A stretch of DNA of 64,000 nt from the NCBI RefSeq assembly GCF_034259325.1, contig NZ_JAXIVS010000005.1, positions 186,001-250,000 on the forward strand. Direction: 5' to 3'. The notes below the pieces were generated by a model. The model had not been told where the DNA came from and ran no database searches. It was given only the letters and a program-made list of their open reading frames with translations. The position numbers and the translations under genes were made by a program. This DNA is from Hyalangium ruber (GTDB lineage Bacteria > Myxococcota > Myxococcia > Myxococcales > Myxococcaceae). Positions within the stretch are counted from its first letter, which is position 1, and each line of letters opens with the position of its first letter. This document shows, piece after piece, positions 1 to 35,606 of the stretch.

Positions 1-480
1 GCGCGTGACGATCACGTCCGGCCGGAAGCGTCGGATGGCGAGCACCACATCCGCCAGCACCTCCTCGCGCCCCCAGATGCGCAGCGTCTCGTCCGCGCTC
101 TTCGAGTAGCCGAAGTCCCGCGCGCGCGTGAAGAGCTGCTCGGCGCCATCGACGCGCCGCGCCGCGAGCAGTTCCTGTGTGCGAATGAGCCCCAGCAGCT
201 CGTCCTGCTCCGTCCCGATGAGGTTCTGGCCTCCGTCGCCCCGCGTCATCGACAGGTAGCCGGCGCGCAGGCCCCGCTCACCGACCATCCATGCCAGGAA
301 CCGCGTGTTCTCGTCATCGGGGTGCGCCGCCACGTACAGCACACTCCCCACCACACCGAGGCGCCGGATGCCCGCCGCGAGCTCACCCGCGTGGGGTTGG
401 CGGGGCGTCTGCGCGAGGGCCGTCGACCAGACTCCAAGGCTCATGGCCAGCGTCGTTCCAAGAATGAGCAGGTTCCGCAT
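1..480 (-). CDS. Secreted PIG-L (LmbE) family deacetylase, C-terminus cut by window edge
   Basis: The visible 160 residues begin with a signal peptide ([22 protein letters not shown]) and then a LmbE-type core: [12 protein letters not shown] is the family's metal-binding AHPDDE motif, followed by the [10 protein letters not shown] segment. The family hydrolyses N-acetyl groups of GlcNAc-type substrates using zinc. A signal peptide implies work in the periplasm or outside, unlike the cytoplasmic BshB-like paralogue of the divergent operon. The frame is open to base 1, so the C-terminal half lies outside the window. The start ATG is the only one placing the signal peptide at the N-terminus. Substrate unknown. 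Confidence 0.85.
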
Positions 481-585
481 TCGAGCGAACCTCATAACAA
501 AGGCCTCGGGAGCATGCGGAAATCTTTCGCCCCGCCACGAACACCGGGTCGCCCTGGTACGCCGGACCTGTTATCAGGACGCACC

Positions 586-2214: not shown

Positions 2215-3017
2215 GCCCGACCGAGCCGGGGTACGGCCTCGACGTCCTCGCGTTCGGTCCGCACCCCGATGACGTCGAGCTGTTCTGCGGCGGGCTCCTG
2301 GCCCGCATGGGGGACCTCGGCTACCGCACCGGCATCATCGATTTGACGCGGGGCGAGAAGAGCTCGCGCGGCACGCCGGAGACCCGCGCCGCCGAGACCG
2401 AGGCCGCCTCCCGCGTGCTGGGGCTCTCACTCCGGGAGAACCTGGGCCTGCCCGATGGCTGGGTCTCCCCATGGTCCGGCTTCGATGCCCCCGAGGAGGA
2501 GCGCACCCGCAACGCGCCCGTGACGCGGGTCGTCGAAGTGCTGCGCCGCCTGCGTCCCGAGCTCGTCCTCGTCCCCTGGGAGCAAGAGCGCCACCCGGAC
2601 CACGAGGCCACCAGCGCGCTGGTGACACGCGCCCTGTTCTTCGCCTCCGTCCGACGCTTCGAGACCGAGCCCCCCAGCGCCCCCTTCACCCCGCGACAGG
2701 TCCTCTACTACCCCCTGCGACACCTCGCCGAGCCGAGCGTCATCGTCGATGTGACGGCGGCCTTCGATCGAAAGATGGCGGCCATCCGCTGCTACGCGAG
2801 CCAGGTGGAGCCGCGCCCAGACGGCCCCCAGACCCTGGTCGGCTCACCCCTCTCGCTCTCCTCCATCGAGGCGCGGGACCGCTTCTATGGCGCCCACATC
2901 GGCGTGGCCCACGGCGAGCCCTACGTGGTGCGAGAGACCCTGGGCCTGGCCGATCCGATCGATCATTTTCGCAGGAATAGCTTCGCGCGGCCCCTGTTCT
3001 TCCCCCACCGCCGATGA
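2211..3017 (+). CDS. bshB1: Bacillithiol biosynthesis deacetylase (BshB1-like, PIG-L family)
   Basis: Cytoplasmic LmbE-family deacetylase of 268 residues. The metal-binding motif [13 protein letters not shown] is at residues 16-28, followed by GIIDLTRGE and a late HPDHEATS metal-ligand block, in the arrangement of BshB1. The reaction is removal of the acetyl group from GlcNAc-malate, the middle step of bacillithiol synthesis. Its position between bshC and bshA, with ATGA overlaps on both sides, supports the assignment more than sequence alone, because PIG-L proteins have many substrates. No signal peptide. Confidence 0.88.
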
Positions 3018-4177
3018 CCGACCGCCTCAACCTGGCCATCACCTGCTTTCCCACCTTTGGCGGCAGCGGTCTGATCGCCACCGAGATCGGCCTGGCGATG
3101 GCGGAGCGCGGCCACCGCGTCCACTTCATCGCCCGGGATCTGCCGGTCCGCCTCCGAGGCAAGGGCCGACAGGTGCTCTTCCACGAGGTGACCGAGAGCG
3201 ACTACCCGGCGCTCCAGAACTCGGGCACCTACCCGCTGGCGCTCGCCTCCAAGATGATCGAGGTGGCCCAGTACGAGAAGCTCGACGTGCTGCACGTCCA
3301 CTACGCGGTGCCCCACGCCACCGCCGCGTGGATGGCGCGCGAGGTGCTCGGCGACAAGGCGCCGCGCATCGTCACCACGCTCCACGGCACCGACACCACA
3401 CTGGTGGGCATCGACCCCAGCTACCTGCCCATCACCCGCTTCTCCATCCTGCGCAGCGACGCGGTGACGACGCCCTCGGCGTTCCTCCGGCGCGCCACCT
3501 GGGAGGGCTTCGGCATCCCGGAGTCCGTCCCCATCGAGGTCATCTTCAACTTCGTGGACACGCGGCACTACGCGCCGAACCGCGATCGCACGGCCCTGCG
3601 CACGCTCTTCCCGGACCTGGGAGACACCGAGCAGGTGCTCATCCACGTGTCGAACTTCCGGCCCGTCAAGCGCATCCAGGACGTGGTGTCCGTCTTCGCC
3701 GAGGTACACCGCCGCTTCCAGTGCCGGTTGGTGATGGTGGGCGATGGGCCGGAGCGCTCCCCGGCCGAGCGCCGGCTCCGGGAGCTCGGCCTGGAGGAGC
3801 GCGTGGCCTTCGTGGGCAAGCAGGAGCAGTTCGTCGAGCTGCTCGCCGCCTCCGACGTCTTCCTGCTCCCCAGCGAGCAGGAGAGCTTCGGCCTCGCCGC
3901 GCTGGAGGCGCTGAGCTGCGGCGTCCCCGTGGTCGCCAGCCACATCGGCGGCGTCCCGGAGCTGGTCGATCATGGAGAGACCGGGTACCTGGCGCCCGTG
4001 GGCGAGGTGGCGACCATGGCCGCCCACGTCCTCACGCTGCTCCGGGACCGGGCCCGCTGGGACAGCTTCTCGCGCCGTGCGCGCGAGCGCGTCCTCGAGC
4101 GGTTCCAGCTCGCGCCGGCCATCGACCGCTACGAGGCGCTCTACCGGCGACTCGTAGCGGGGGCCGACGGCCGCTGA
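3014..4177 (+). CDS. bshA: N-acetyl-alpha-D-glucosaminyl L-malate synthase BshA
   Basis: GT4-family glycosyltransferase of 387 residues, the usual BshA length. It starts ITCFPTFGGSGLIATEIGLA, a BshA-like N-terminus with a Gly-rich donor loop, and carries the C-terminal EQESFGLAALEALSCG motif (E-x7-E type) that binds the nucleotide sugar. The enzyme transfers GlcNAc from UDP-GlcNAc to L-malate, the first step of bacillithiol synthesis. It is last in the bshC-bshB-bshA operon. Its stop codon abuts the stop codon of the convergent downstream gene with no spacer, leaving no room for a separate terminator. Confidence 0.9.
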   Translation: MTDRLNLAITCFPTFGGSGLIATEIGLAMAERGHRVHFIARDLPVRLRGKGRQVLFHEVTESDYPALQNSGTYPLALASKMIEVAQYEKLDVLHVHYAVPHATAAWMAREVLGDKAPRIVTTLHGTDTTLVGIDPSYLPITRFSILRSDAVTTPSAFLRRATWEGFGIPESVPIEVIFNFVDTRHYAPNRDRTALRTLFPDLGDTEQVLIHVSNFRPVKRIQDVVSVFAEVHRRFQCRLVMVGDGPERSPAERRLRELGLEERVAFVGKQEQFVELLAASDVFLLPSEQESFGLAALEALSCGVPVVASHIGGVPELVDHGETGYLAPVGEVATMAAHVLTLLRDRARWDSFSRRARERVLERFQLAPAIDRYEALYRRLVAGADGR

Positions 4178-21501: not shown

Positions 21502-23658
21502 TCAGAAGTCGCTCTCGCCGGAGATGTTCTCCGGGTAGCCGGAGATGGCCTGCGAGGCCTGGAGGCCGGACATGACGGCGGCCTCCACGCACCCGCAGTT
21601 GAGGCCGGTGAGGGTCCAGTCTCCCGCGAGGTACAGGTTGGGGTAGTCGGAGTCGTGCGAGCCGAGCCGGGCCTCCGTCGAGCCCGGCAGCGAGAGCACG
21701 TAGCGCTCGGGCGGGTCGATGTTGGCGCGCCAGAACTGGCTGTCGAAGCGGGCCACCCCCTCCTGCTTGCCCTGAAGCGTCGCGAGCTGCGCCCAGTCCA
21801 GGCCCGTCGGGTTGTAGCGCGGCGCCTTCGGCCACAGCGGTCCGATGCACTCCTTCAGCCAACGGAGGGACAGTTCCTTCAGTCGCTCGTGCTCTCGCCG
21901 GGGGAAGTCGTGATCGGTGAACGGCGGGATGACCGGCGCGTCCATCAGCGGCGCGGTGAAGTAGGCGATGTTCTTGACCGTCCCCGGGGGCCAGGTCTCC
22001 CGAGGCAGTAGGTGCGCCATGTCCGCATAGGTATTGAGCGGCTCGGCATAGCCCGTCATCACCGTGGGCGCCTGCGTCCAGCCCAGCTCCTCCAAGGAGC
22101 GGGACAGCCAGACCTGCACGCCCAGCGTCTGGTTGGTCTGGAGCGCCTCGACCATCCGCCGCCAGCGCGCGCTGTGCTCGAGCAGCTCTCCGCAGAGGTA
22201 GGGGAACGTCCCGAGCGAGATCCCCATCACCAAGACGTCGTAGTCCTTGCCGCGCTCCAGGGTGACGGGCTTCGCCCCCTTCCACTTCGGAGCCCAGTAC
22301 GACTCCAAATTGATGCCGGAGGCCTCGAGCTCGTGGCCATCGACGATCTGCTCGTAGCTCGGCCGGTCGGGCCAGCACGGCAGCCCGAGCACATCCACGA
22401 GGGGCTGATACCCCGCCACCGAGTCCTTCAGCGCCACCTGCCGCGTCATCTCGATGCGGTTGATGTTGCGCGTCAGCGGGTGGACGCGGAGCTTCTCCAC
22501 CTTGTGGAAGAAGTGGAACCGCACACCCCGCCGCTTGAGCACCTCGTACATGGGAGCGAAGACCACGTCACCCATGCCCGCGCGCATCTTGTAGAAGACC
22601 GCGCCCTTGTAGGTGAGGGCCATGCGAATCATGAAGCGCGTCGCCACGCCCGCCGCGAGCTGCTGCCGGTTCGGATCGCCCTGGATGTACGCGAAGAGCA
22701 GCTGGTACATGCCCCGAACGATGGGGGCCTGGTACAGCGTGAAGTCGCTGGCGCCGTGCCGCGCCAGCCACGCGCGGAAGTCCTCGCCGTCGATGGCGTT
22801 GAAGCCCTTACTCAGCAGCCCATCCCGCAGGATGCCCCGGGCGATGACGAGCCCCAGCTCCAGAACGCCCCAGAGCTTGCGAACGGCACTGTTCTCCAGG
22901 TTGCGGATGAAGCGCGCCGACAGCCGGGCGAAGACCTCCTCGACGAGATAGAGGATGACCTCCAGGTGGTTCGGGTCCTGCGCCCCCTGAGCCTTGGGCA
23001 GCCGAGCCGCGGCGAGCTGCGCGAGCTGGAGCGTGCGCCCGATGCCCGGCACGCTGCCCCTCGGGAAGGCCGGGAGCCCCAGCGAGCGGAGCGTGCTCTC
23101 GATTTTCGCGGGCAGCGTCTCGGGAGCAGGCGTCGCCGCGGCGAGGCCCGCCCCTGGCAGCTCGTACAGCATGTCCAGCAGCGCCTGCAGCCCGCGCTCC
23201 AGGTAGGTGGCGAGCGAAGGGAATGCCCCCTCCCCTTCCATCCCCGGCTCGAGCGGGTTCTCCGGAAAGGGGAACGGCCAGTCCACCCACCCATTCGGCG
23301 TGCGCTCGAACAGATTGACGAGCGACTGCTTCTTGAAGGCATCTTCGAGCGTGGCCAGGGGGGCGCTCTTGGGGCGACCCAGCTCCTGGTACACCTGCCG
23401 CATCATCCGGAAGGCGTTCTCGTAGTGCCCCATCCAGACGTGGAGGCCGTGCTCCTCGATGCGCTGGGCGGCGTCCTTGTTGCGCCCGCTGGCGCCCTTG
23501 CCACCCAGCCGCCAGCCCAGGTTGTAGAGGACGACCTCGTAGTGGTCCTGCCAGCCCGGGTAGTTGGTCAGCCCGTAAGCGGCCGTCATCGCGCCGACGC
23601 CACCCCCGAGGATGACGATCCTGCGCTTTCGACTCCGCGACTCCTCTGCCGTGCTCAT
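21502..23658 (-). CDS. FAD-dependent oxidoreductase, amine-oxidase / phytoene-desaturase-like (copy 2)
   Basis: 718 residues. Dinucleotide-binding fold at the N-terminus: VILGGGVGAMTAAYGL, then an unusual conserved block YNLGWRLGGKGASGRN and EHGLHVWMGHYENAF. The C-terminal FAD contact is LYLAGDWTLTGLNCGCVEAAVMSG. This layout resembles a poorly characterised NAD(P)-binding amine-oxidase-like group rather than a known carotenoid enzyme. It is clearly paralogous to the gene just upstream, with the same motifs in the same order. Separated from it by 13 bases; last gene of a four-gene operon. Substrate unknown. Confidence 0.82.
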   Translation of the reverse strand: MSTAEESRSRKRRIVILGGGVGAMTAAYGLTNYPGWQDHYEVVLYNLGWRLGGKGASGRNKDAAQRIEEHGLHVWMGHYENAFRMMRQVYQELGRPKSAPLATLEDAFKKQSLVNLFERTPNGWVDWPFPFPENPLEPGMEGEGAFPSLATYLERGLQALLDMLYELPGAGLAAATPAPETLPAKIESTLRSLGLPAFPRGSVPGIGRTLQLAQLAAARLPKAQGAQDPNHLEVILYLVEEVFARLSARFIRNLENSAVRKLWGVLELGLVIARGILRDGLLSKGFNAIDGEDFRAWLARHGASDFTLYQAPIVRGMYQLLFAYIQGDPNRQQLAAGVATRFMIRMALTYKGAVFYKMRAGMGDVVFAPMYEVLKRRGVRFHFFHKVEKLRVHPLTRNINRIEMTRQVALKDSVAGYQPLVDVLGLPCWPDRPSYEQIVDGHELEASGINLESYWAPKWKGAKPVTLERGKDYDVLVMGISLGTFPYLCGELLEHSARWRRMVEALQTNQTLGVQVWLSRSLEELGWTQAPTVMTGYAEPLNTYADMAHLLPRETWPPGTVKNIAYFTAPLMDAPVIPPFTDHDFPRREHERLKELSLRWLKECIGPLWPKAPRYNPTGLDWAQLATLQGKQEGVARFDSQFWRANIDPPERYVLSLPGSTEARLGSHDSDYPNLYLAGDWTLTGLNCGCVEAAVMSGLQASQAISGYPENISGESDF

Positions 23659-23671
23659 CGCCCCTCGTTCC

Positions 23672-25771
23672 TCAGCGGTACCAGAACGCCTCTCCAGAGA
23701 TCCGCAGCGGCTGCTTCGTGACGGCGCGGAAGGCCAGCATGCCGGAGATGACGGCGCCCTCGGCCGCCCCGATATAGAAGCCGTTGTCCACCCAGTCCCC
23801 GCAGACGGTCAGGTTCTCGAAGCCCGTCTGGTCCGGCCGGATCCGCGCCTTCTCGGTGCCCGGCAGCGCCAGGGTGTAGCGCTCGCTGGGGTCGACGTTG
23901 GCGCGCCAGTACTGCGTGCCGAAGCGCCCCTCCCCCGCCGCCCCGTTCGAGGGCACCAGCAGCGACCAGTCGAACACAGCCGGGTTGTTGGGCTGCGTCG
24001 AGCGCGGCCAGAGCACGCTGATGTCATTGCGCAGGAAGCTGAGCGCCGCCTGCCGAGCCAGCTCCTTCTGCCGCGCGGGGTAGCCATGGTCTGTCGGAGG
24101 TGGAGGCCGAGACGGACCGGGCATGGGACCGCAGAAATAGGCCGAGGTGCGCGGCGCGTTCGGCTGGGCCCAGCCCTCCCGGGGCAACAGGCTCGTCATG
24201 TCCGCCCACGTGTCGAGCGGCTCGACGTAGCCCGTCAGCATCGGGCTCCCCACCGTCCAGCCCAGCGCGCTCAGATCCTTGGTGGTCCAGATCTGGAAGG
24301 CCTGCGTCTGGATGGTGGCCACCTGATCCACCATCCGCCGCCACGCCGGGTTGAGCTCCATCAGCGTCGGGCACAGGAAGGGCACCGAGGCCACCGGGAT
24401 GCCGAAGACGACCTGATCGAAGTCCTTGCCCACCTCCAGCACACGCTCCTCCACGCTCGGCCAAGGCGTGTAGAAGGACTCCAGATCGATCCCCTCGATG
24501 ATCAGCTTGTCCCCTTGGACGATCTGATCGTAGAGCGGCTTGTCCGGCCAGCACGGCAGGTTCTTCACGTAGATGAAGGGCTCGTAGCTGGCCTTCGGAT
24601 CCTTCAAGTCCACCTGGCGGCCGACGCGCACCCGGGTGACGCGAGGCTTGCCGCCGGGCCCGCCGCGCTCGGCGATGACCTCCTCGACGCGGTGGAAGAA
24701 CTCGAAGCGCACCCCCTGCTTCCGGCAGGCTTCGTACAGCGGCACGAAGATGGTGTCGCCCATGGAGCCCGTGAACTCGTAGGCCACGTGCCCCTGGTAC
24801 GTGAGGCCGATGCGCAAGAGCGCCCGCAGAGCGCTGCCCGCTCCGATCAACTGCCGATCCGGATCGCCGTCGACCATGCTCATGGCCGCGTCGTAGATGG
24901 TGCGCGCCAGCACCGAGCGCAGCGACATGGCGCTGGCGCCGTGCTTCTCCAGCCACTCGCGGTAGTCCTGGCCCTCGATGGAGTTGAAGCCCTTGGACAG
25001 CACGCCATCCGCGAGGATTCCCACGAGGTTGGCGATGAGGAAGTCCAAGCCCACGTACAGCTGATAGAGCAGGAAGTTCGACTCGATCAGGTACTCGATC
25101 CGAGACTTGATCCAGTTCAGGAACGTCCGGAGCAGCTTGAGGACCGTCTCCGTGATGCCGTCCGCGGTGGCAGAGGCCAGCTGCGGCTGCGTGGCCAACA
25201 ACACCTGGGCATAGGCCTGCTCGAGCAGCTCCTCCCCATCCGCAGTGCTCCCCAGCTCCTGCGCGGTGAGGGTGTGGCCCTGCGCCACCGCGAGCGAGAG
25301 CCCGCCCTTGAGCTTGCTGTAGACCTGCCGGGCCACCCCGAGCACCTGCTCGATGATCTGCCAGCTCGTGGACGAGTCATCCCCCTCGCCAGGCTGGCGG
25401 GAGTTGGAGGGGAACGACACCACCCAGCGCTGCCAGCGGCCGTTGACGAAGTCCTCCATCGCGATGAGATCGCGCGGGGCGAAGGCCTGCTCGAAGGTGG
25501 CCAGCGGCATCGACTTCGGCCGGTCCATCACCCGGTAGCACTCGCGCATCAACGAGAACGCGTTCTCGTAGAAGCCCCAGAAGATGTGGAGCCCATGCTC
25601 CTCGATGCGGCCGTGGGGGCCGCGTCCGCTGGCGCCCTTGCCTCCGAGTCGCCAGCCCACCTGGTACACGGTGACTTCGTACTCTTCGCGAAGCTCCGGC
25701 GTGCGAGACAGGTAGTACGCGGTGGTCAGCGCGCCGGCGCCGCCACCGAGTACCGCCACCTTCTTCTTCAT
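23672..25771 (-). CDS. FAD-dependent oxidoreductase, amine-oxidase / phytoene-desaturase-like (copy 1)
   Basis: 699 residues, paralogue of the following gene. VLGGGAGALTTAYYL at residues 6-20 binds the dinucleotide; YQVGWRLGGKGASGRG and EHGLHIFWGFYENAF match its partner almost word for word, and LTVCGDWVDNGFYIGAAEGAV is the C-terminal FAD motif. The ATG overlaps the stop of the upstream decarboxylase-like gene by four bases. Two divergent copies kept side by side suggest two successive oxidations or a heterodimer. This is inference; no reaction can be assigned. Confidence 0.82.
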   Translation of the reverse strand: MKKKVAVLGGGAGALTTAYYLSRTPELREEYEVTVYQVGWRLGGKGASGRGPHGRIEEHGLHIFWGFYENAFSLMRECYRVMDRPKSMPLATFEQAFAPRDLIAMEDFVNGRWQRWVVSFPSNSRQPGEGDDSSTSWQIIEQVLGVARQVYSKLKGGLSLAVAQGHTLTAQELGSTADGEELLEQAYAQVLLATQPQLASATADGITETVLKLLRTFLNWIKSRIEYLIESNFLLYQLYVGLDFLIANLVGILADGVLSKGFNSIEGQDYREWLEKHGASAMSLRSVLARTIYDAAMSMVDGDPDRQLIGAGSALRALLRIGLTYQGHVAYEFTGSMGDTIFVPLYEACRKQGVRFEFFHRVEEVIAERGGPGGKPRVTRVRVGRQVDLKDPKASYEPFIYVKNLPCWPDKPLYDQIVQGDKLIIEGIDLESFYTPWPSVEERVLEVGKDFDQVVFGIPVASVPFLCPTLMELNPAWRRMVDQVATIQTQAFQIWTTKDLSALGWTVGSPMLTGYVEPLDTWADMTSLLPREGWAQPNAPRTSAYFCGPMPGPSRPPPPTDHGYPARQKELARQAALSFLRNDISVLWPRSTQPNNPAVFDWSLLVPSNGAAGEGRFGTQYWRANVDPSERYTLALPGTEKARIRPDQTGFENLTVCGDWVDNGFYIGAAEGAVISGMLAFRAVTKQPLRISGEAFWYR

Positions 25772-26754
25772 GAACCGCTCCAGATGAGGTGACCTTCGTT
25801 GAGGCGGAAGTCGTAGCGGACTTGCAGAGCCCCTGGAATGAAGATCTGCCCCCTCGGATCGAGCTCCAGCCCCAGCTCCTCGACCAGCGGCTGGGTGGCG
25901 AGCGACTCCACCTTCAGGCGGAAGCGGCGCGGCACCAGGCGCAGGCTCTTCAGATCGATCTGATCCGCCGCCGCGCCCACGATGGCCTGGTAGCAGGCAT
26001 CCGTGCGGGTGCCCACGCCGCGAAGCTGCTTGAGGAACACCATGGGCAGCGTCGGCCGGAACAGGAACTCGACGACCCGCGCGCCGATCTCGAAGTCGAA
26101 GCCGAGCAACTGCCCCAGCTCATCCCGGAGGACGCCGAGCCGCTCCAGCAACTCCTCTCCCAGCGAGCGCTCCCGCTCCTCCCGATCGAGGGAGGTGCCA
26201 TCCGCGCGCTCCACGGTGAGCACCCGCGCCAGCTCGGCCCGCGTGTCGGGGCTGAAGGTGCGGTACGCCAGGGTGTGGATCTCGAACGCCCCCGCCCCCT
26301 GCCCCGTGCCCGGCATCTGGATCGTCGCGGCCTGCTTGGGGAAGCCGTAGATCTCCCGGCCTCCAGCCACCGCCCAGGGGTTGTCCGCGTAGATGAAGGG
26401 AATGAACATCTCCACGCGCTTGCAGAGCTCGTCCGGGCCGTGCTTCTTGTAGTCGCTGGCGGCGATCCAGAAGGTGGCCTCGCGCTCCGAGGTGTACCCC
26501 CAGTCCTGGAAGCCCTCGGCTCCCGAGGAGAGCCGGGCGATGTGCTGGAACGTCAGCATCACGAAGGGCAGCCGCGGGCGATAGTCCACCGCGCCACCCG
26601 AGGGCTCATTGAGGTACTTGTCGCAGACGGCCTGGAGGCTCGACTGCCGACCCTTGATGAAGAAGATGTACTGGGTGACGTCCTGGCACAGGCTCGGCGG
26701 GGGGTAGACCTGGAGCGAGGCGTTGTTGAGGTACTTCGTCCCCGGAGGGCTCAT
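25768..26754 (-). CDS. Acetoacetate decarboxylase-like protein (second copy)
   Basis: 328 residues of the acetoacetate decarboxylase fold. The key block GGREIYGFPKQAATIQM near residue 135 contains the family's E-x-G-x-P-K sequence, whose Lys forms the Schiff base in true decarboxylases. It is longer than classical ADC (about 245 residues), with extra N-terminal sequence. The chosen ATG shares its first base with the stop of the upstream gene (TAATG), indicating coupled translation; an earlier in-frame start was rejected. ADC-fold proteins can also catalyse aldol or dehydration reactions, so decarboxylation is not certain. Confidence 0.78.
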   Translation of the reverse strand: MSPPGTKYLNNASLQVYPPPSLCQDVTQYIFFIKGRQSSLQAVCDKYLNEPSGGAVDYRPRLPFVMLTFQHIARLSSGAEGFQDWGYTSEREATFWIAASDYKKHGPDELCKRVEMFIPFIYADNPWAVAGGREIYGFPKQAATIQMPGTGQGAGAFEIHTLAYRTFSPDTRAELARVLTVERADGTSLDREERERSLGEELLERLGVLRDELGQLLGFDFEIGARVVEFLFRPTLPMVFLKQLRGVGTRTDACYQAIVGAAADQIDLKSLRLVPRRFRLKVESLATQPLVEELGLELDPRGQIFIPGALQVRYDFRLNEGHLIWSGS

Positions 26755-27560
26755 TACTTCTCCTTGGAACCTCGCCAATTGAGCGGCTTGGGCATCACGA
26801 AGCGGATCCGCGGCAGGTGCTGAACCACCTGGGGCGTGAAGCGCATGTCCACCAACTCCCGACCCAGCGTGCTGTCGCTGGAGAGGGAGAACTCATCCCC
26901 TTCTCCGAACAGACGGTAACGCGCCTCCAGGTCGAAGTGCATGATGTTGCGCGTCTGGAAGACTTCCTTCGGGGTGACGAACCCGATGGAGAGTCGCTGC
27001 ACGCCCGTGGGCTCCTCGGGGAAGCGGACCCGACCGAAGGCGACGCGCTTGCCCTCGCACGTCACGTCGAAGCGGCACCACGGCGCCGAGAAGGCGATGT
27101 CCACCGGCTGCGGCGTGGGGTGCTTGGCGTGCCCATGCACCTCGCGGCCATAGTCGATGGGCACCTGCTGATCGAGGATCAGCTTGTAGCAGAGCACCGT
27201 GGCATCCGGGTGCGCCCCCGCCTGGAGCAGCTCGAGTGGACCGCTGGCCGGTATCTCCAGGGGCTTCGTGGAGACGGCGAAGGAGACGATGAGCTCCTTG
27301 TAGGGCCCGCACGTGGTGTCGTGGTAGTCGGCCAGCCAGAGGGCGGCGGTGCAGCGGTTGGCGCCGATCGACACCGGCTGGTAGCGCTGCCCCGCGAGCA
27401 GGCGACGGACCACCTCGAGGTCCGCCGTCCCATGCAGCACCGCCATGTCCGCATCGCGGCACGCGTAGGGGACCTGGCACACGACGCCTGACGAGAGCTC
27501 GTAGTCCTCGGTGGGCGGATAGGCTTCGAACAGCGAGGGAGCGGGCCGGGTCGTCTGCAT
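26754..27560 (-). CDS. Acetoacetate decarboxylase-like protein (first copy)
   Basis: 268 residues, close to classical ADC length. YGREVHGHAKHPT near residue 140 aligns with the REIYGFPK block of the next gene. The probable Schiff-base Lys is kept, but the Phe-Pro before it is His-Ala, which would change the pocket. Conserved surroundings include KELIVSFAVS and PEEPTGVQRLSIG. First gene of the operon ADC-like / ADC-like / FAD oxidoreductase / FAD oxidoreductase. The 68 bases upstream should hold the promoter. Substrate unknown. Confidence 0.75.
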   Translation of the reverse strand: MQTTRPAPSLFEAYPPTEDYELSSGVVCQVPYACRDADMAVLHGTADLEVVRRLLAGQRYQPVSIGANRCTAALWLADYHDTTCGPYKELIVSFAVSTKPLEIPASGPLELLQAGAHPDATVLCYKLILDQQVPIDYGREVHGHAKHPTPQPVDIAFSAPWCRFDVTCEGKRVAFGRVRFPEEPTGVQRLSIGFVTPKEVFQTRNIMHFDLEARYRLFGEGDEFSLSSDSTLGRELVDMRFTPQVVQHLPRIRFVMPKPLNWRGSKEK

Positions 27561-27628: not shown

Positions 27629-29626
27629 CTACCGGCCCGTCAGGGCAGCCAGGGCCGAGTCCTGAGGCTGAGTGGTCGGCTCACGCGGCTGCGGGGAAGG
27701 CGTCGTGTCCCCCGTTATGACCACCTGGCCGCGGCGGCCGAGGACGTCGTGGACGGTCACCGAAGCGCCCGGGCCGAGCAGATAGGCCCCTGCCTCCCGA
27801 CACTCGAACTCCTCCGCGATGCGCTGGCGCAGGCGCTCGCTGATGAGCACCTGCTCCCGCGCGGCCAGCGCGGCGAGCTGCGCCGCGGTGTTCACCACGT
27901 CTCCGACCACCGTGTAGTCCAGCCGACCCAGCTCCAGCCCGCCGAGGCCGCCCGCCACCACGTCTCCGGCATCCAGCCCGATGGAGACGCCATGCGCGTA
28001 CGGCGACTGATCACCCGTGCGGAAGGCCATGTCGCGGATCTGCGCCCGCACCGCCACGCACGCATCCAGCGCCCGCGTGAGGTGCTCGGGGCCGCGGAAC
28101 ACCGCCATCACCGACTCGCCCAGGAACTTGTCCACCGTGCCGCCGCGCGAGGCCAGCTCGGGGACGATGACCTGGAAGTTCTCGTTCAGCTTGCGGATGA
28201 CGGCCTCCGGCGGCGCCTGGCGCGTCACCGGCGTGAAGTCCTTGATGGAGACGAAGGCCACCGTGGCCTCCACGCGCTCACCGGCCAGCGCCTCCGGCCC
28301 CTGCAAGAGCGAGCGCAGGCGGTCGCGCACGGAGCTCTGCACGGCCACGCGCAGCAGTGCGTTCTCCTCGATGGAGCGCACCATCTGGCGCACCTCGGCC
28401 GCGTGCTTGAGCGTCTTGACCAGCGTGGCCTCGAGATCCTGGAAGTCGAGCGGCTTGACCAGGAAGTCGTGCGCACCGCGGTTCATCGCCGTGCGGATGT
28501 TGGCCATGTCGCTGTAGGCCGAGACGATGATGACCTTCACCAGCGGGTTCACCTCGCCGACCTTGCCCAGGAAGGTGAGCCCGTCCATGCGCGGCATGTT
28601 GATGTCGGTGAGGATGGCGTCCACGTCCGGGTTCTGGCGCAGCTTCTCCAGGCCGTCCTCGCCATCCGAGGCGAAGATCATCTCGTAGAGGCCGTCGCGG
28701 AGCTGGCGGCGGAATGCCTGCCGCATCAGCGTCTCCACGTCTGGCTCGTCGTCCACCACCAGAATCTTGGCCGTCTCGATGCGGGCCGACTGGACGATCG
28801 CCGAGAAGGCCGCCGCCAGCTCATTGGCGGACTGGAAGCGCTGCGCGGGATCGGGATCCAGCGCGCGCGAGAAGAAGGGATCCAGCTCCGCGCCCAGCTC
28901 GGGCACCAGCGTGGAGGGAGCCACCTCGGGCGGACGGAAGCTGCCGTTGAGCAGCGAGCCGACGGACTCCAGCGAGAACGGGAAGCGCCCGGTGAGGGCG
29001 CGGAAGAACACCACCGCGATGGACCAGAGATCGCTGCGGTGGTCGAGGCTCGTGTCCCCGCGGATCTGCTCGGGGCTCATGTAGCGCAGCGTCCCCACCA
29101 TGCCATCGGCGACAGGATCGGTGGGCAGATCCTCGGTGCGCGACTTCTGCCGGACCAGACCGAAGTCGAGGATCTTCACCTCCTCGCGGCCGGCGACCCG
29201 GGCCAGGAAGAGGTTGGCCGGCTTGAGGTCGCGGTGGACGATGCCGGCGGTGTGCGCGTCCGTCAGGGCACGGGCCACCTGGGTCATCAGCGCGGCGACG
29301 GCGGAGGGCGCCAGCCGCTCGCGGCGACGCAGGCGCGTCTCGAGGTCCTCGCCCTCGAGCAGCTCCATGACGATGTACGGGTCATCGCCGTCCACGCCGA
29401 AGTCGTGGATCTGCACCACGTTCGGGTGGTGGAACTGGGCGATCGCCTTGGCTTCCTGCTCGAATTGACGGCGCGCGGCGGCGGAAGAGAGCCGCTGCGA
29501 CGTGGTGAGCTTGATGGCAACGCGCCGCTGGAGCTGGGAATCGGTCGCCATCCAGATGGCACCCATGCCACCGCCAGCGATCTTCTTCTCCAACACGTAC
29601 CTGCCACCGACCTGGCGACCAGACAT
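27629..29626 (-). CDS. Ser/Thr kinase - receiver - degenerate class III cyclase hybrid
   Basis: 665 residues from the ATG giving MSGRQVGG. Kinase 8-275: AGGGMGAIW, K39, HRD 131-133, DFG 154-156, YMSPEQ. Receiver 285-410 is canonical: phospho-acceptor D341 (LTDINMP), S369, K391. Cyclase homology domain 450-630: the first metal Asp is Ser460 (FVSIKDFT), the second is Glu504 (FLGESV), and the transition-state Arg is Gln583 (VNTAAQL), while K500, D576 and N579 remain. The cyclase is therefore probably inactive and may bind nucleotide or dimerise. No membrane segment. Divergent from the MBL lipoprotein gene. Confidence 0.9.
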   Translation of the reverse strand: MSGRQVGGRYVLEKKIAGGGMGAIWMATDSQLQRRVAIKLTTSQRLSSAAARRQFEQEAKAIAQFHHPNVVQIHDFGVDGDDPYIVMELLEGEDLETRLRRRERLAPSAVAALMTQVARALTDAHTAGIVHRDLKPANLFLARVAGREEVKILDFGLVRQKSRTEDLPTDPVADGMVGTLRYMSPEQIRGDTSLDHRSDLWSIAVVFFRALTGRFPFSLESVGSLLNGSFRPPEVAPSTLVPELGAELDPFFSRALDPDPAQRFQSANELAAAFSAIVQSARIETAKILVVDDEPDVETLMRQAFRRQLRDGLYEMIFASDGEDGLEKLRQNPDVDAILTDINMPRMDGLTFLGKVGEVNPLVKVIIVSAYSDMANIRTAMNRGAHDFLVKPLDFQDLEATLVKTLKHAAEVRQMVRSIEENALLRVAVQSSVRDRLRSLLQGPEALAGERVEATVAFVSIKDFTPVTRQAPPEAVIRKLNENFQVIVPELASRGGTVDKFLGESVMAVFRGPEHLTRALDACVAVRAQIRDMAFRTGDQSPYAHGVSIGLDAGDVVAGGLGGLELGRLDYTVVGDVVNTAAQLAALAAREQVLISERLRQRIAEEFECREAGAYLLGPGASVTVHDVLGRRGQVVITGDTTPSPQPREPTTQPQDSALAALTGR

Positions 29627-29700
29627 GGACTTCACCCGTGCATGCAAGAGCCAGAGGCGTGCTCCGGCTGTGGATGTCGAACCGCTGCACGTCCCCTGTT

Positions 29701-29718
29701 CTGATACCTTCATATCAG
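29701..29718. promoter_or_regulatory. Perfect palindrome overlapping the ribosome-binding site of the MBL gene
   Basis: CTGATA - 6 bases - TATCAG; the right arm runs directly into AGGAGGAG, the Shine-Dalgarno of the next gene. It could be an operator or an RNA hairpin that hides the binding site. Confidence 0.4.
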
Positions 29719-29731
29719 GAGGAGCTTTGTG

Positions 29732-30796
29732 ATGGCCATGCCCCGACCCCGCCCTGCCCCGCCGTCCAGGTGGGTCCTCTTGCTCCTACTGGGAGTGACA
29801 GGGATTGGAACGGGTTGCCATGCGTTCGCCGCTCCTGTCTACCAAGGCCCGAGGTCCGAGCACTTCGACGGCGAGCGCTTCGTCAACCAGGAGACGCGCA
29901 CGCGTCGGATGAGCATCCTGGACTGGCAGTTGAACCGGCAGCCCGGCCCCTGGACTGAGTGGACCGACACCCCTCCGGGTCCTCCTCCACCCCGTCGCGT
30001 GGCCTCCGGGGCCCTGCGCGTCACCTTCGTCAACCACGCCACCACGCTGCTCCAGCTGGACGGAGTGAACGTGCTGACGGACCCCATCTGGTCCGAGCGC
30101 TGCAGCCCGGTGTCCTTCGTGGGCCCCAAGCGCGTGCGCCCGCCCGGCCTGCGCTTCGAGGACCTGCCGCCCATCGACGCGGTGATCATCAGCCACAACC
30201 ACTACGACCACATGGACTTGCCGACGCTCAAGCGCCTGGCGAAGCACTTCCCCAACGCGCGCTTCTTCGCCGGGCTGGGCAACAAGGCCTTCCTGGACTC
30301 CAAGGGCCTGCCGAACGTGACGGAGCTGGACTGGTGGCAGGAGGTCCAACTCACACCGGCGGTGAAGCTGGTGAGCGCCCCCGCCCAGCACACCTCCAAC
30401 CGGGGCCTGAGCGACCGCAACGGGACGCTGTGGACGAGCTACGTGCTCCAGGGGCCCTCGGGGGTGACGTACTTCGCGGGGGACACCGGCTACGGCAAGC
30501 ACTTCCGCCAGGTGCGCGAGCGCTTCGGCCCGCCTCGCCTGGCGGTGCTGCCCATCGGCGCCTACAAGCCCGAGGCCTTCATGGAGGTGATGCACATCTC
30601 CCCGAAGGAGGCGGTGCGAGCCCACCTCGACCTCGAGGCCAAGGTGAGCGTGCCCATGCACTTCGGCACCTTCCACCTCGGGGATGACGGGCAGGAGGAG
30701 CCCGTCGCCGATCTGCTCGAGGCCGTGGAGGCCCAACCCTCACCGAAGCCGGAGTTCTGGGTGCTCGGCTTCGGCGAGGGGCGCGACGTCCACTGA
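29732..30796 (+). CDS. MBL-fold metallo-hydrolase lipoprotein (NAPE-PLD / UlaG-like)
   Basis: 354 residues. A hydrophobic leader ends in GIGTGCHAF, a lipobox, so the protein is probably anchored to a membrane. The metallo-beta-lactamase core has SHNHYDHMD (HxHxDH) near residue 153, then YFAGDTGYG for the metal-bridging Asp and PMHFGTFHL for the last His. Upstream sequence (VTFVNHATTLLQLDG..NVLTDPIWS) is typical of the NAPE-PLD-like phosphodiesterase / beta-lactamase L group. An AGGAGG lies at good distance from the ATG; a GTG three bases earlier is also possible. Substrate unknown. Confidence 0.85.
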   Translation: MAMPRPRPAPPSRWVLLLLLGVTGIGTGCHAFAAPVYQGPRSEHFDGERFVNQETRTRRMSILDWQLNRQPGPWTEWTDTPPGPPPPRRVASGALRVTFVNHATTLLQLDGVNVLTDPIWSERCSPVSFVGPKRVRPPGLRFEDLPPIDAVIISHNHYDHMDLPTLKRLAKHFPNARFFAGLGNKAFLDSKGLPNVTELDWWQEVQLTPAVKLVSAPAQHTSNRGLSDRNGTLWTSYVLQGPSGVTYFAGDTGYGKHFRQVRERFGPPRLAVLPIGAYKPEAFMEVMHISPKEAVRAHLDLEAKVSVPMHFGTFHLGDDGQEEPVADLLEAVEAQPSPKPEFWVLGFGEGRDVH

Positions 30797-30799
30797 GGC

Positions 30800-32983
30800 T
30801 CAGGCCTTCACGTCGGTGCGCGGCGGCACTTCACCGCTGGCGGAGTGCTGGCCGCCGCCGTTGCCACCGCCGGGCTTGTCCTCCAGGGCGGACTTCTCCC
30901 CAGCGGGCTTGTCCAGCAGCACCTTGGTGGGCCCCTGCTCGTCGGCGGCGCGACGGGCCTCCCGCTCCTTGTAGCGGCGGATGGCCGGGGCCATGATCTC
31001 GCCAATGAGCGTGCGGTAGTCCATGCCCGCGCCCTGGGCGATGAGCACCAGATCGCTCCAGCCCGGCGTGAGGCCCGGCAGCGGGTTGCACTCGATGAAG
31101 TAGATGCGCCCCTTGTCATCCATGCGGAAGTCGATGCGCGCCACGTCGCGGCACCCCAGCGCCATGAACGAGCCACGCGCCGCCGTGCGCAGCTTCTCCA
31201 GCAGCGCCGGCTCCAGCTTCGCGGGCGCGTCGTACCGGATGCGATCGTTCCAATCGAGCTTGTGCTGGAAGCTGTAGACCGGGTTCTTCTCCTCTTTGTC
31301 GAGGAAGACGATCTCCATGGGCGGCAGCACGCGCGGCCGGCGCTCGCCCAGCAGGCCCACGGTGAACTCGCGCCCGCCAATGTACTCCTCGATGAGCGCC
31401 GGCTGCTTGTACTTGCCCACCAGCTCCTTCACCACCTCGCGCAGCTCCGCCTCGCTCTGGCAGACGCTCTTGCTCACCACGCCCTTGGAGGAGCCCTCCG
31501 CCACCGGCTTCACGATGAGCGGGAAGTTGGTGAACTCCTTGTTGAGCCGCTCCTTGCCCGTGTGCATGAGCTGGAAGGTCGGCGTGTGGATGCCGGCCTG
31601 GCGGACGATCTTCTTGGCCAGCGCCTTGTCCAGCGCGAGCGAGAGCGTCGCCGGATCGCTGCCCGTGTACGGGATGTCCAGGAGCTCCAGCATCGCCGGC
31701 ACCTGGCTCTCGCGGTTACGGCCCTTGAAGCCCTCGGCGATGTTGAAGACGATGTCCACCGGCGTGCTCGCGAGCACACTCGGCAGCTCCGCGGTGGCCT
31801 CGAGGTCGATCACCTCATGGCCCCACGAGGCGATGGCCTCGCGGATGGCCTGGAGCGTGGACGGCGAGTCGTACTCGGCCTCGCTGTCCTCGGAGGCATC
31901 CACGGTCGGCTTCACGCGCTTGACGTTGTAGGAGAAGCCCACCTTCAGCGGGCCGCTCTTGCGCGCCGGCTTGCCCTGGCGCCGCGCCGAGTCCTTGATC
32001 TTGTAGCGCTTGGCGGCGCTCTGGATGATCGAGCCGATCACCCCGTCCAGGTGCAGCCCCTCCAGCGCCGCGGAGGCGTAGATGCCGGCGCCGGGCTCCA
32101 GGCTGGGCAGCGCGTTGATCTCCAGGAAGTACGGCACGCCCGCGTCGCTGAGCCGGAAGTCGATGCGGCCCAGGTCCCGGCAGTCCAGCACTCGGAAGAT
32201 CGTCTGCGCCATCTTGCGCACGTCCTCCGCCGTCTTCGCGGAGATGTTCGCCGGGGCGCGCACGCTCACGGCGCCGTAGTTCTTCACCTTCAGATCGTAG
32301 TCGTAGATCTGGTACTTGCGGCCCGCCGTGGCGTTCGCGTCGACCACGTACTCCACCGGCGTGAGCACGCCGTCGTAGTCATTGTCCACCGCGGCCAGGA
32401 AGGGCACCGTCAGGTCCTTGCCGCCGATGAACTCCTCGACCAGCACGCCGGCGGGGTACTTGGCCAGCGCGTCGGCCACCTTCGCGCGCACCTCGTCCAG
32501 CGTCTCCGCGATGGAGTCCTGGGTGATGCCCTTGGAGGAGCCCTCGAAGTTGGGCTTGACGATCACGGGGAAGCGCAGGTTCTCGGCCGTCAGCTCGCTG
32601 AGCTTCTCCACGTACTGCCAGCCCGGCGTGCGGATGCCGTGCTTGGAGAGGATCAGCTTGGTGAGCTGCTTGTCCAACGTGACGGCCAGGGCGTACGCGT
32701 CGCTGGCGGTGTACGGGAAGCCCAGCTCGTCGAAGAGGGCCGGGTAGAAGGCCTCGCGGAAGCGGCCGCGGCGCCCCTCGGCGGTATTGAAGATGAGATC
32801 CGGGCTGTAGGCCTCCAGCCGGGCGACGGTGCGCGAGGCGGGGCCGCTCACCTCGAAGCGCTCCAGCCGGTGGCCGAGCCGCTCGATGGCGCCCGCCAGC
32901 GTGTTCACCGTCTCCTGGGTATCGAACTCCGCCTCTTCTTCCGAGTCGGAGAGCCTGAGGTTGTACGTCAGCGCGATGCGCAC
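30800..32983 (-). CDS. Tandem ATP-grasp ligase, two D-Ala-D-Ala ligase-like units fused
   Basis: 727 residues made of two homologous ATP-grasp units, about 1-330 and 346-672, then a low-complexity tail. Each unit has an FN(T/I)AEG substrate-side loop (residues 65-70 and 413-418), a P-loop-like EGSSKG (147-152 and 496-501), an EE(F/Y)IGG(K/R) ATP-binding segment, and a metal site RIDFR...E-x-N (FLEINALP at 287-293, FIECNPLP at 630-636). Since both keep Glu and Asn, both halves look active. D-Ala ligases have one unit of about 300-350 residues; a double one is unusual and suggests two sequential peptide-type ligations. Its start overlaps the RDD gene by 16 bases. Confidence 0.85.
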   Translation of the reverse strand: MRIALTYNLRLSDSEEEAEFDTQETVNTLAGAIERLGHRLERFEVSGPASRTVARLEAYSPDLIFNTAEGRRGRFREAFYPALFDELGFPYTASDAYALAVTLDKQLTKLILSKHGIRTPGWQYVEKLSELTAENLRFPVIVKPNFEGSSKGITQDSIAETLDEVRAKVADALAKYPAGVLVEEFIGGKDLTVPFLAAVDNDYDGVLTPVEYVVDANATAGRKYQIYDYDLKVKNYGAVSVRAPANISAKTAEDVRKMAQTIFRVLDCRDLGRIDFRLSDAGVPYFLEINALPSLEPGAGIYASAALEGLHLDGVIGSIIQSAAKRYKIKDSARRQGKPARKSGPLKVGFSYNVKRVKPTVDASEDSEAEYDSPSTLQAIREAIASWGHEVIDLEATAELPSVLASTPVDIVFNIAEGFKGRNRESQVPAMLELLDIPYTGSDPATLSLALDKALAKKIVRQAGIHTPTFQLMHTGKERLNKEFTNFPLIVKPVAEGSSKGVVSKSVCQSEAELREVVKELVGKYKQPALIEEYIGGREFTVGLLGERRPRVLPPMEIVFLDKEEKNPVYSFQHKLDWNDRIRYDAPAKLEPALLEKLRTAARGSFMALGCRDVARIDFRMDDKGRIYFIECNPLPGLTPGWSDLVLIAQGAGMDYRTLIGEIMAPAIRRYKEREARRAADEQGPTKVLLDKPAGEKSALEDKPGGGNGGGQHSASGEVPPRTDVKA

Positions 32984-33612
32984 GGCTTCTCCCTTTTCGC
33001 CTTCTTGAGCGAGCGCCCGCGGCGCACCTTCGCCGCGGACATGAGTCGACCCGGAGCGCGCTCATGCGCCACGGGCGTGCGGGCGGCAACCGTCGCGCCC
33101 GCGACAACCTTCCCATCCACCACCTGCGTCTGGGCCCACATGTCCCCGAGCCGCCAGCCGAGCGGATCCTTGAGGACGCGCCACGCCTCCAGCCCGCCGA
33201 TGACGACGAGGCCCGCGGCGCCGGCCACCAGGCCCAGCGGCTGCGGCATCATCCCCAGCAGGACGATGAGCGCCAGCGGCGCGTTGCGCAGGGTGCTGTC
33301 ACGGTGGCGCGCCGCCGAGCGGGTCGGCAGGTGCATCACCTTCACTCCGAAGATGCGCTTGCCCACGCTCTGGCCCTGGAGCATGCCGTCGGCCAGCAGC
33401 AGGAACAGCAGCGCCACCACGGAGCCGGCGGCGCCGCAGACGACCCACAGGCCCCACGCCACGGCCACGTCCACCAGCCGCGCGCCCACGCGCAGCAGCA
33501 GCGAGGCCTTGGGGTACGGAGAGCCGGCCATGGCATCGCCCTCATGGACGAGGCGCAGCGCGCGCTCGCTCCGAGGTGCCACCATGAAGCTACGTTCGGG
33601 GCCGGGGTTCAC
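32968..33612 (-). CDS. RDD family membrane protein
   Basis: 214 residues. The RDD domain starts at SLLLRVGARLVDVAVAW and has the second signature GQSVGKRIFGVKVMHL. Hydrophobic segments lie at about residues 47-75 and 115-140. A positively charged tail (KVRRGRSLKKAKREK) follows. RDD proteins are of mixed or unknown function; some act in transport of ions or in cell-envelope assembly. The GTG start overlaps the upstream stop (GTGA) and has GGAG eight bases before it; a later ATG at 33531 is the main alternative. Confidence 0.75.
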   Translation of the reverse strand: MNPGPERSFMVAPRSERALRLVHEGDAMAGSPYPKASLLLRVGARLVDVAVAWGLWVVCGAAGSVVALLFLLLADGMLQGQSVGKRIFGVKVMHLPTRSAARHRDSTLRNAPLALIVLLGMMPQPLGLVAGAAGLVVIGGLEAWRVLKDPLGWRLGDMWAQTQVVDGKVVAGATVAARTPVAHERAPGRLMSAAKVRRGRSLKKAKREKPCASR

Positions 33613-34118
33613 TCCTCGGGCTCCAGCGTGAGGCCCTTCTCCAGGGGCTCGGGCTCATCCAGGCCCGCGAGCTGCGCCAGCCGCTCGTAGGCGCTGATCG
33701 GCCGAGGGCCTCCGCCGGCCCGCTTCTCGTGCGTACGGGCGTGGTCCGCCATCAACTCCGCCGTGGGCGAGCCCGTCTCCGACAGCCGCATCAGCCGGCC
33801 ACGGGCCTCCTCGGTGTCGTGCGTGGCGGCCTCGCCCTCGCGGGTGAAGAAGACGAAGGCCATGGCCGGACGCTTGGAGGCCTCGCGCATGGCGAACTGC
33901 ACGCCATCGAGGTTCCAACCCTTGGGGATCCACTCGTTGAGGGTGCGCTCCAGCGAGCCCTCATCCACGGTGGACAGCTCGACGACCTTGTATTGCAGGG
34001 GACCCGGCGCCCGGACGACGGGCGTCTTTCCCGTACCGGGGCGCTTGCCGGCGCGGCGGGGACGTTCGGGCGGAGGCTTGGCGGCCTTGCGCTTGGGACG
34101 CTTCTTCTTCGTGGGCAT
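33609..34118 (-). CDS. DUF4177-like protein with basic N-terminus
   Basis: 169 residues starting with a very basic segment (MPTKKKRPKRKAAK) rich in Lys, Arg and Pro. A compact domain follows in which YKVVEL, then LERTLNEWIPKGWNLDGVQFA, then FVFFTRE fits the short DUF4177 beta-alpha-beta pattern. The rest is acidic and probably disordered. It lies between hemB and the RDD gene; the downstream gene overlaps its stop. Nucleic-acid contact through the basic tail is a guess. The start chosen is the ATG before the Lys-rich stretch. Confidence 0.6.
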   Translation of the reverse strand: MPTKKKRPKRKAAKPPPERPRRAGKRPGTGKTPVVRAPGPLQYKVVELSTVDEGSLERTLNEWIPKGWNLDGVQFAMREASKRPAMAFVFFTREGEAATHDTEEARGRLMRLSETGSPTAELMADHARTHEKRAGGGPRPISAYERLAQLAGLDEPEPLEKGLTLEPEE

Positions 34119-34193
34119 TGCTGTGGAACTCACTTTGCGCGCGTCCCGGGTGCGGATCAAGCCGTCCGAGAGACTTCCCGCGCCGGCTGTCGG

Positions 34194-35162
34194 CTACAGG
34201 AGCTTGGAAGCCTCGAGGGCGTGGTAGGTGATGATGAGGTCGGCCCCGGCGCGCTTGATGGAGGTGAGGATTTCCATCATCACTCGATTGCCATCCACCC
34301 AACCGTTCTGGGCGGCGGCCTTCACCATGGCGTACTCGCCGGACACGTTGTAGGCCACCACCGGCACCTGACAGTGCTCCTTCACCCGGTGGATGATGTC
34401 CAGGTACGAGAGCGCGGGCTTGACCATCACCATGTCGGCGCCCTCGTCGAGGTCGAGCCGCAGCTCCTTGAGGGCCTCGCGGGCATTGGCCGGATCCATC
34501 TGGTAGCCGCGCCGGTCGCCGAACTGGGGCGTGCTCTGAGCGGCCTCGCGGAAGGGCCCGTAGAAGCCCGAGGCGTACTTGACCGCGTAGGAGAGGATGG
34601 GCGTGTCCACCAGGTGCGCCTCGTCCATGGACCTGCGCAGGGCGGCGATGCGCCCGTCCATCATGTCCGAAGGGGCGATGATGTCGGCGCCGGCCTGGGC
34701 GCACGTGACGGCCATCTGCGCCAGCAGCGGCAGGGTGGCGTCATTGGCCACGTGATCGCCTTCGAGGACGCCACAGTGGCCGTGGTCGGTGTACTCGCAC
34801 AGGCACACGTCGGCGATGACCTGCAGCTCGGGCACGGCCTCCTTGATGGCGCGGATGGCGCGCTGGACGATGCCGTCGCGCGCGTAGCCCTGCGTGCCCC
34901 GGCCGTCCTTCTGGTCGGGAATGCCGAAGAGGATGACGGAAGGCACCCCGAGGGCCTTGGCCTGCTTCGCCTCGGCGACGGCGTGCTCGATGGAGAGGTT
35001 GAAGATGCCCGGCATCGAGGCGATGGGGCGGCGCACGTCCCGGCCGTCGACGACGAAGAGGGGGTAGATGAAGTCCGAGGGCTCCAGCGTCGTCTCACGC
35101 ACCATGTCCCGGAGGACGGCGGAGCGACGCAGGCGGCGGGGGCGGTGGATGGGGAAAGCCAT
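34194..35162 (-). CDS. hemB: Porphobilinogen synthase (delta-aminolevulinate dehydratase)
   Basis: 322 residues, full family length. It condenses two 5-aminolevulinate molecules to porphobilinogen in haem and corrin synthesis. Visible sites: the metal-binding Cys cluster [12 protein letters not shown] near residue 122 (zinc type), the first active-site Lys in [15 protein letters not shown] and the second in [11 protein letters not shown], both at expected spacing. The gene starts a same-strand series with the DUF4177, RDD and ATP-grasp genes, although 75 bases separate it from the next gene, so a shared transcript is not certain. Confidence 0.96.
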
Positions 35163-35252
35163 AGCTCGACGGTATAAACCGTTGATGGCCCCGCGCCAGC
35201 CTCAAGTGGACCGAGCTGGGCTCCCGGGCAGCCGGCAAGGCGGGGGGCCCCT

Positions 35253-35543
35253 CTACCGCGCGGTTCCCCCGTCCTGCTCCGGGCAGGTGCGGAGGAGCCT
35301 TCGCTCGAAGATCACCTTCTCCTGGATGGTGCAGCCGTCGACGTCGACACAGTTGAAGCTGTGGTCATCTCCCCGGAAGCTCGTCCCCGGGCGGCAGCGG
35401 AACTCCCGCTCGGACTCGCGGAAGCCCTCGAGCTCCAGAGCCTCCTCGTCGCTGAAGTGGAGATAGAGGCGCAGCACCCCCACGCCACACAAGGCGACCG
35501 TCAGGCCCACGACAGGTATCAGCCAGCGCCATGATTTCGCCAC
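35253..35543 (-). CDS. Small single-pass membrane protein, unknown
   Basis: 96 residues from a GTG that has AGGTG five bases upstream; a TTG seven codons earlier is possible. One hydrophobic helix at about 6-28 (LIPVVGLTVALCGVGVL) is followed by an extracytoplasmic tail with four Cys (CRPG, NCVD, GCTI, TCPE) that could form two disulfides. No family recognised. The GC3 pattern and the pairing of a membrane helix with a Cys-rich tail support a real gene. Confidence 0.55.
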   Translation of the reverse strand: MAKSWRWLIPVVGLTVALCGVGVLRLYLHFSDEEALELEGFRESEREFRCRPGTSFRGDDHSFNCVDVDGCTIQEKVIFERRLLRTCPEQDGGTAR

Positions 35544-35606
35544 GCTGGCACCTATATCAAACAAGCCTTGGAAACCGCGCAGGAGGCGGCGCGGCGGCCC
35601 CCCGAC

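Follow-up and report, generated by a model that had tools for sequence, protein, structure and literature searches.

What does Hyalangium do with a gene that encodes, in one chain, two units resembling D-Ala-D-Ala ligase (Ddl), an enzyme that activates a carboxylate as an acyl phosphate and then passes it to an amine? The gene lies in a 64,000-nucleotide stretch of Hyalangium DNA (hereafter, the window; Table 1), and the original prediction was that each unit retains EGSSKG and E-x-N motifs. We found two stretches of the 727-residue protein matched by Dala_Dala_lig_C (PF07478; 4e-69 for the whole protein), two matches to NCBIfam Ddl models, EGSSKG at residues 147-152 and 496-501, and E-x-N as E288-I-N290 in unit 1 and E631-C-N633 in unit 2. 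Hence, the two Ddl-like units with their motifs are real, and 76 related loci, described below, corroborate them well beyond what chance would give. The scan for promoters and terminators at positions 29600-35600 gave nothing useful at the ligase.

Table 1. Tandem ligase gene, its parts and the adjoining genes (window positions)
Feature	Position	Strand	Evidence
Tandem Ddl-type ATP-grasp ligase, 727 aa, GTG start	30800..32983	-	ORF, Pfam, NCBIfam, AlphaFold, structure matches
Unit 1, residues 1-329: full ATP/Mg/phosphoryl set; acceptor A-L-P-S...A-G; Glu187 equivalent = Asp190	31997..32983	-	
Unit 2, residues 344-677: full ATP/Mg/phosphoryl set; acceptor P-L-P-G...S-D (S643, D644 invariant)	30953..31954	-	
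C-terminal tail, residues 685-727: low-complexity, disordered, fast-evolving	30803..30931	-	pLDDT about 30; pN
Weak RDD-type membrane-domain gene, upstream, 16 bp overlap with ligase start	32968..33612	-	PF06271 22.3 bits, cut-off 24.1
Small conserved gene (cluster c10), no family match, same gene run	33609..34160	-	neighbour clustering
hemB (delta-aminolevulinate dehydratase), head of hemB-orf-RDD-ligase run	34194..35162	-	domain match, neighbour clustering

The AlphaFold model of the ligase (41 homologues as input) has a mean pLDDT of 84.7 and a pTM of 0.59; hence, the units are well predicted and their placement relative to each other is loose. Taken alone, residues 1-329 and 344-677 each align to Ddl crystal structures with Z scores of 32-34. 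Pfam and AlphaFold show two Ddl units followed by a tail without order, and nothing further; pN is 0.22-0.29 in the tail (the last ~43 residues) vs 0.03-0.05 in the units.

Foldseek also matches chains of carbamoyl phosphate synthetase (CPSase) across both halves. The large subunit of that enzyme likewise has two fused ATP-grasp units, and with both ATP sites of the tandem intact, the protein might follow CPSase-like logic, with two phosphorylations inside one overall reaction. However, the units are of a different type, each half being Ddl-like, and neither CPSase-type halves in the CPSase arrangement nor its oligomerisation and allosteric domains were found. Since the match has only 13-14% identity and an rmsd of about 20 across both halves, CPSase was rejected as the parent fold. 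Moreover, unit 2 persists alone near a peptidase gene at two loci (L093 and L105, below), which a strictly coupled machine would forbid, so we consider CPSase-like logic quite improbable.

A separate standard ddl, to be sought if the tandem is distinct from the usual enzyme, was found between murC and ftsA (G000:C6:404936) in the Hyalangium genome (listed as 100% complete), which has a second canonical copy at C6:203645. Similarly, each of the eight distant tandem carriers tested showed one or more additional Ddl-sized matches. Hence, the tandem protein is not the cell-wall ligase, and it neither lies in a mur/fts cluster nor serves one as the cell's own Ddl.

We aligned 31 unit-1 and 31 unit-2 sequences from a diverse set with both canonical Hyalangium Ddl proteins; residues are numbered by their equivalents in E. 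coli DdlB, as assigned by motif. Neither unit varies at the equivalents of Lys97, Lys144, Ser151, Lys215, Asp257, Glu270 and Asn272 (31 + 31 sequences), and the E and N of E-x-N, like the second serine of EGSSKG, are present in 31/31 sequences of each unit. The first serine of EGSSKG is found in 31/31 unit-1 sequences and in 23 unit-2 sequences, the other 8 having Thr. The Glu180 equivalent is kept in 31/31 and 30/31 sequences of units 1 and 2, respectively, and that of Arg255 in 30/31 and 31/31; at the Glu187 position, unit 1 has Asp and unit 2 has Glu (31/31 each). In BpDdl, the residues corresponding to all of these are assigned to ATP binding and catalysis (PMC6899670). Pairwise dN/dS is about 0.12-0.49 for both units, i.e. 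purifying selection; hence, both units are maintained. By their residues, both units look catalytically complete, although a conserved set is no proof that both turn over. A unit lacking its substrate pocket would have spoken against the original prediction; neither unit lacks the catalytic set.

The substrate-binding residues tell a different story. The His63 equivalent is Glu in 31/31 sequences of both units, the Tyr216 equivalent is replaced in every unit-1 and unit-2 sequence, and AE[FY]D stands in place of the N-terminal E-R-E motif of Ddl that holds Glu15, for which the alignment is uncertain. The Ser281-Leu282 equivalents are mostly Ala-Gly in unit 1 and are Ser-Asp in 31/31 unit-2 sequences, and at the Gly276 position, unit 1 has Ser throughout and unit 2 has Gly. 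Since the D-Ala pocket residues are replaced, neither unit resembles a D-Ala-D-Ala ligase, and since the acceptor sites differ consistently between the units, we infer two different couplings. Judged from sequence, the tandem likely performs two different ligations, one per unit. The two ligations of the original prediction are therefore supported in part: intact residue sets, purifying selection and differing acceptor ends fit two different ligations.

Compared with Ddl (PF07478, PRK01372/TIGR01205), each unit has the same fold, EGSS loop and ATP/Mg/phosphoryl-transfer residues, but the tandem differs in having two units per chain, replaced substrate residues (those at His63, Tyr216, Ser281-Leu282 and the Glu15 motif), a separate ddl in the genome and an S58 peptidase partner. 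Among solved structures, Ddl and Van ligases come closest, as would be seen for a spare or resistance-type (Van-like) D-Ala-D-X ligase for the cell wall; however, given the replaced pockets of both units, the two canonical ddl genes and the fact that conserved vanH/vanX-like neighbours were not seen in the neighbour clustering, we give this explanation hardly any credence.

The Hyalangium genome also has two single-unit relatives with EDAS-type loops. One of them (L005) adjoins a Peptidase_Mx gene (L137:3103-5298, G000:C12), a second ligase-peptidase pair, and the same kind of pair, an ATP-grasp paralogue with Peptidase_Mx, occurs in Bdellovibrionota (L106, L107 and L109). These pairs resemble the tandem locus in that an ATP-grasp gene adjoins a peptidase gene, but they have one unit, mostly another loop and a zinc peptidase instead of S58.

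A genome-wide scan yielded 76 loci with 49-91% identity to the ligase, most of them matched over the full length. They come mostly from Myxococcota, with Bdellovibrionales MAGs, one Elusimicrobia MAG and a few MAGs with broad labels. Ligase matches were found in 92 of 146 Myxococcota genomes and family members in 19 of 78 Bdellovibrionota genomes; almost every larger Myxococcia genome sampled has a single copy of the tandem, which also occurs in some other Myxococcota. In a tree of the units, built by a quick method with SH-aLRT support only, the unit-1 sequences all fall in a single clade (100), and the unit-2 sequences all fall in a second one (97). Hence, the fusion most simply has a single origin, and the divergence of the two units is, as the tree reads, a single ancient event. 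In five Elusimicrobia loci (L111, L113, L116, L117 and L118), a single unit-2-like ATP-grasp gene is followed by a small helix-turn-helix protein, and also by a lysine-2,3-aminomutase-like gene and a basic repeat protein of 73-76 aa.

Three single-unit genes (L093, L105 and L092) nest among the unit-2 sequences, which makes three or more losses of unit 1 probable. Unit 1 also evolves somewhat faster, with 85% identity to M. xanthus vs 92% for unit 2 and a higher dN/dS in most pairs, and its Ser281 equivalent is gone from most members. These features would suit a protein in which only unit 2 ligates in practice and unit 1 has become a regulatory or substrate-binding copy. Yet 30-31 of 31 unit-1 sequences keep each ATP/Mg/phosphoryl residue across phyla, which is unusual for a non-catalytic copy, so we think it unlikely that unit 1 is inactive and prefer one ligation per unit.

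Neighbour clustering around 24 diverse ligase loci revealed a DmpA-type S58 peptidase nearby in 17, in many cases as a gene that overlaps the stop codon of the ligase. Among solved structures, it is most closely related to P. horikoshii D-aminopeptidase, DmpA and BapA; the homologues at L078 (9.5e-111) and L132 match PF03576, which places them in family S58, and the Hyalangium partner matches DmpA (1b65) at 5e-74. The partner keeps the Gly-Ser autocleavage site (GSII) and the active-site Asn, Ser and Glu (NFG, SGE, GECDD) of this family (PMC9570944). It thus belongs with the DmpA/BapA enzymes ('P1 family peptidase') but forms a distinct subfamily of its own that goes with the ligase; in the Hyalangium genome, the partner scores 707 bits vs 251 bits for a second S58.

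Among the 146 Myxococcota genomes, 89 have both genes, 3 the ligase only, 2 the S58 only and 52 neither (Fisher p 2.6e-33, to be read with the phylogenetic non-independence of the genomes in mind). The 19 Bdellovibrionota genomes with the ligase and the 19 with the S58 (of 78) are identical. In several genera that are nested among carriers (e.g. g4, g21, g30 and g35), genomes without either gene recur, which suggests that no single shared event lies behind the co-occurrence. The few pair-breaking genomes comprise G095 (ligase without S58), G014 (unit 2 only, no S58), and G139 and G059 (S58 without the tandem); G055, scored as ligase only, has an S58 fragment at a contig edge (L121). Where unit 1 is missing, the S58 gene directly follows the unit-2-only gene at L105 and lies about 1.5 kb beyond it at L093.

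In 51 of the 89 Myxococcota genomes with both genes, the S58 gene lies within 500 bp downstream of the ligase, and it is upstream in none of these; in the others, it is 0.5-5 kb away (17), 5-20 kb away (6), more than 20 kb away on the same strand (9) or on another contig (6). The Hyalangium S58 gene (C5:172545-173660) is on the same strand as the ligase at a distance of 43.3 kb; hence, the two do not form one operon there. Relatives with a split pair have gaps of 23-91 kb, as though inserted DNA had pushed the two genes apart. Among related genomes, the spacing ranges from near zero to 91 kb with strand and order constant (G000:C5:172545-218983 in Hyalangium). The wide conservation, the near-obligate S58 partner and the loss of unit 1 while unit 2 stays all go beyond the original prediction.

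Other neighbours are less constant. In the hemB-orf-RDD-ligase run, gene ends overlap or nearly touch, and hemB and RDD were rejected as general partners because they are neighbours in the order Myxococcales only. ABC transporters were likewise rejected as general partners: the neighbouring ATPases are of differing kinds (ABC-2, Pot-like and Mal-like) and were therefore treated as assorted. A sugar ABC transporter adjoins two loci only (L104 and L121). A MATCAP/QEGLA peptidase-like gene neighbours L098 and L101.

One Bdellovibrionota clade has an arginase/agmatinase-family gene directly upstream of the ligase (8 loci) and a potABCD-type polyamine importer adjoining the ligase/S58 pair. Together with the invariant Asp644 at the unit-2 acceptor end and the lysine-2,3-aminomutase-like genes beside one tandem (L069) and the five Elusimicrobia single-unit genes, this might indicate that an amino acid is joined to a cationic amine or amino acid (polyamine, agmatine or beta-lysine), with S58 reversing the reaction. 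However, the arginase and potABCD genes accompany the ligase in one clade only, and distant relatives of the arginase-like gene are widespread in genomes that have no ligase, so neither was accepted as a partner. The aminomutase was rejected as a required partner as well: it is present in 140/146 Myxococcota regardless of the ligase, and carriers G175 and G204 have none at threshold. A cationic acceptor is therefore doubtful, and we treat the arginase-like, potABCD and MATCAP/QEGLA neighbours as leads, not as established partners.

Elsewhere in the window, bshC, bshB1 and bshA lie in a row (322-4177, + strand), a complete bacillithiol set in a myxobacterium with all three above NCBIfam cut-offs. 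At 21502-27560 (- strand), two adjacent large FAD/NAD-type oxidoreductases with weak resemblance to hydroxysqualene dehydroxylase/phytoene desaturase are followed by two acetoacetate-decarboxylase-like proteins.

We propose, with a probability of roughly 0.55, that the protein is a two-unit ATP-dependent amide ligase that carries out two different ligations on a small peptide or amide, which the DmpA-type S58 enzyme acts on as well. With ATP and two Mg bound, each unit would phosphorylate the carboxylate of one substrate (Lys97, Lys144, Glu270 and Asn272 equivalents), and the amine of a second substrate would attack the acyl phosphate (Lys215 and Arg255 equivalents). Since unit 2 is retained when unit 1 is lost, with S58 kept in 2/3 cases, S58 probably targets a bond formed by unit 2. 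In this model, unit 2 would form the core bond recognised by S58, unit 1 would then add a further residue, and S58, self-cleaved at Gly-Ser, would remove or transfer the N-terminal residue, leading to turnover or maturation. The two ligations, the order of the steps and the substrate shared with S58 are the inferred parts of the model.

Cyanophycin synthetase is a further comparison: it has two ligation sites in one chain, makes a non-ribosomal peptide, and its pathway has a dedicated peptidase. The tandem is similar in these two sites and in its putative pathway peptidase; however, the second site of cyanophycin synthetase is a Mur-ligase domain, not a Ddl unit, and its peptidase is not S58. 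A known family of defined function might have accounted for the tandem; none with this architecture was found in Pfam, NCBIfam or PDB, and open-access full texts yielded no description of the architecture or the S58 pairing, a search that does not establish absence from the wider literature. New here are a variant form of a familiar kind of enzyme and a partnership unreported in the databases and open-access papers searched.

The ligase is kept by almost all of the larger Myxococcia sampled, yet the models that it matches carry the name of a cell-wall ligase which is already present. Its near-constant co-inheritance with S58 across two phyla suggests that the ligase builds, and the peptidase cuts, a small peptide that is as yet undescribed. 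Tentatively, at somewhat less than even odds, we envisage an undescribed small-molecule pathway shared by Myxococcota and Bdellovibrionota: a two-site ligase derived from Ddl would assemble a short peptide or amide in two different couplings, and a DmpA-type enzyme dedicated to the product would trim, transfer or recycle its N-terminal residue. A compact two-site peptide ligase would be of interest as a biocatalyst. To our knowledge, the physiological substrates of DmpA-type enzymes are unclear, and the tight link to the ligase gives these enzymes a natural setting.
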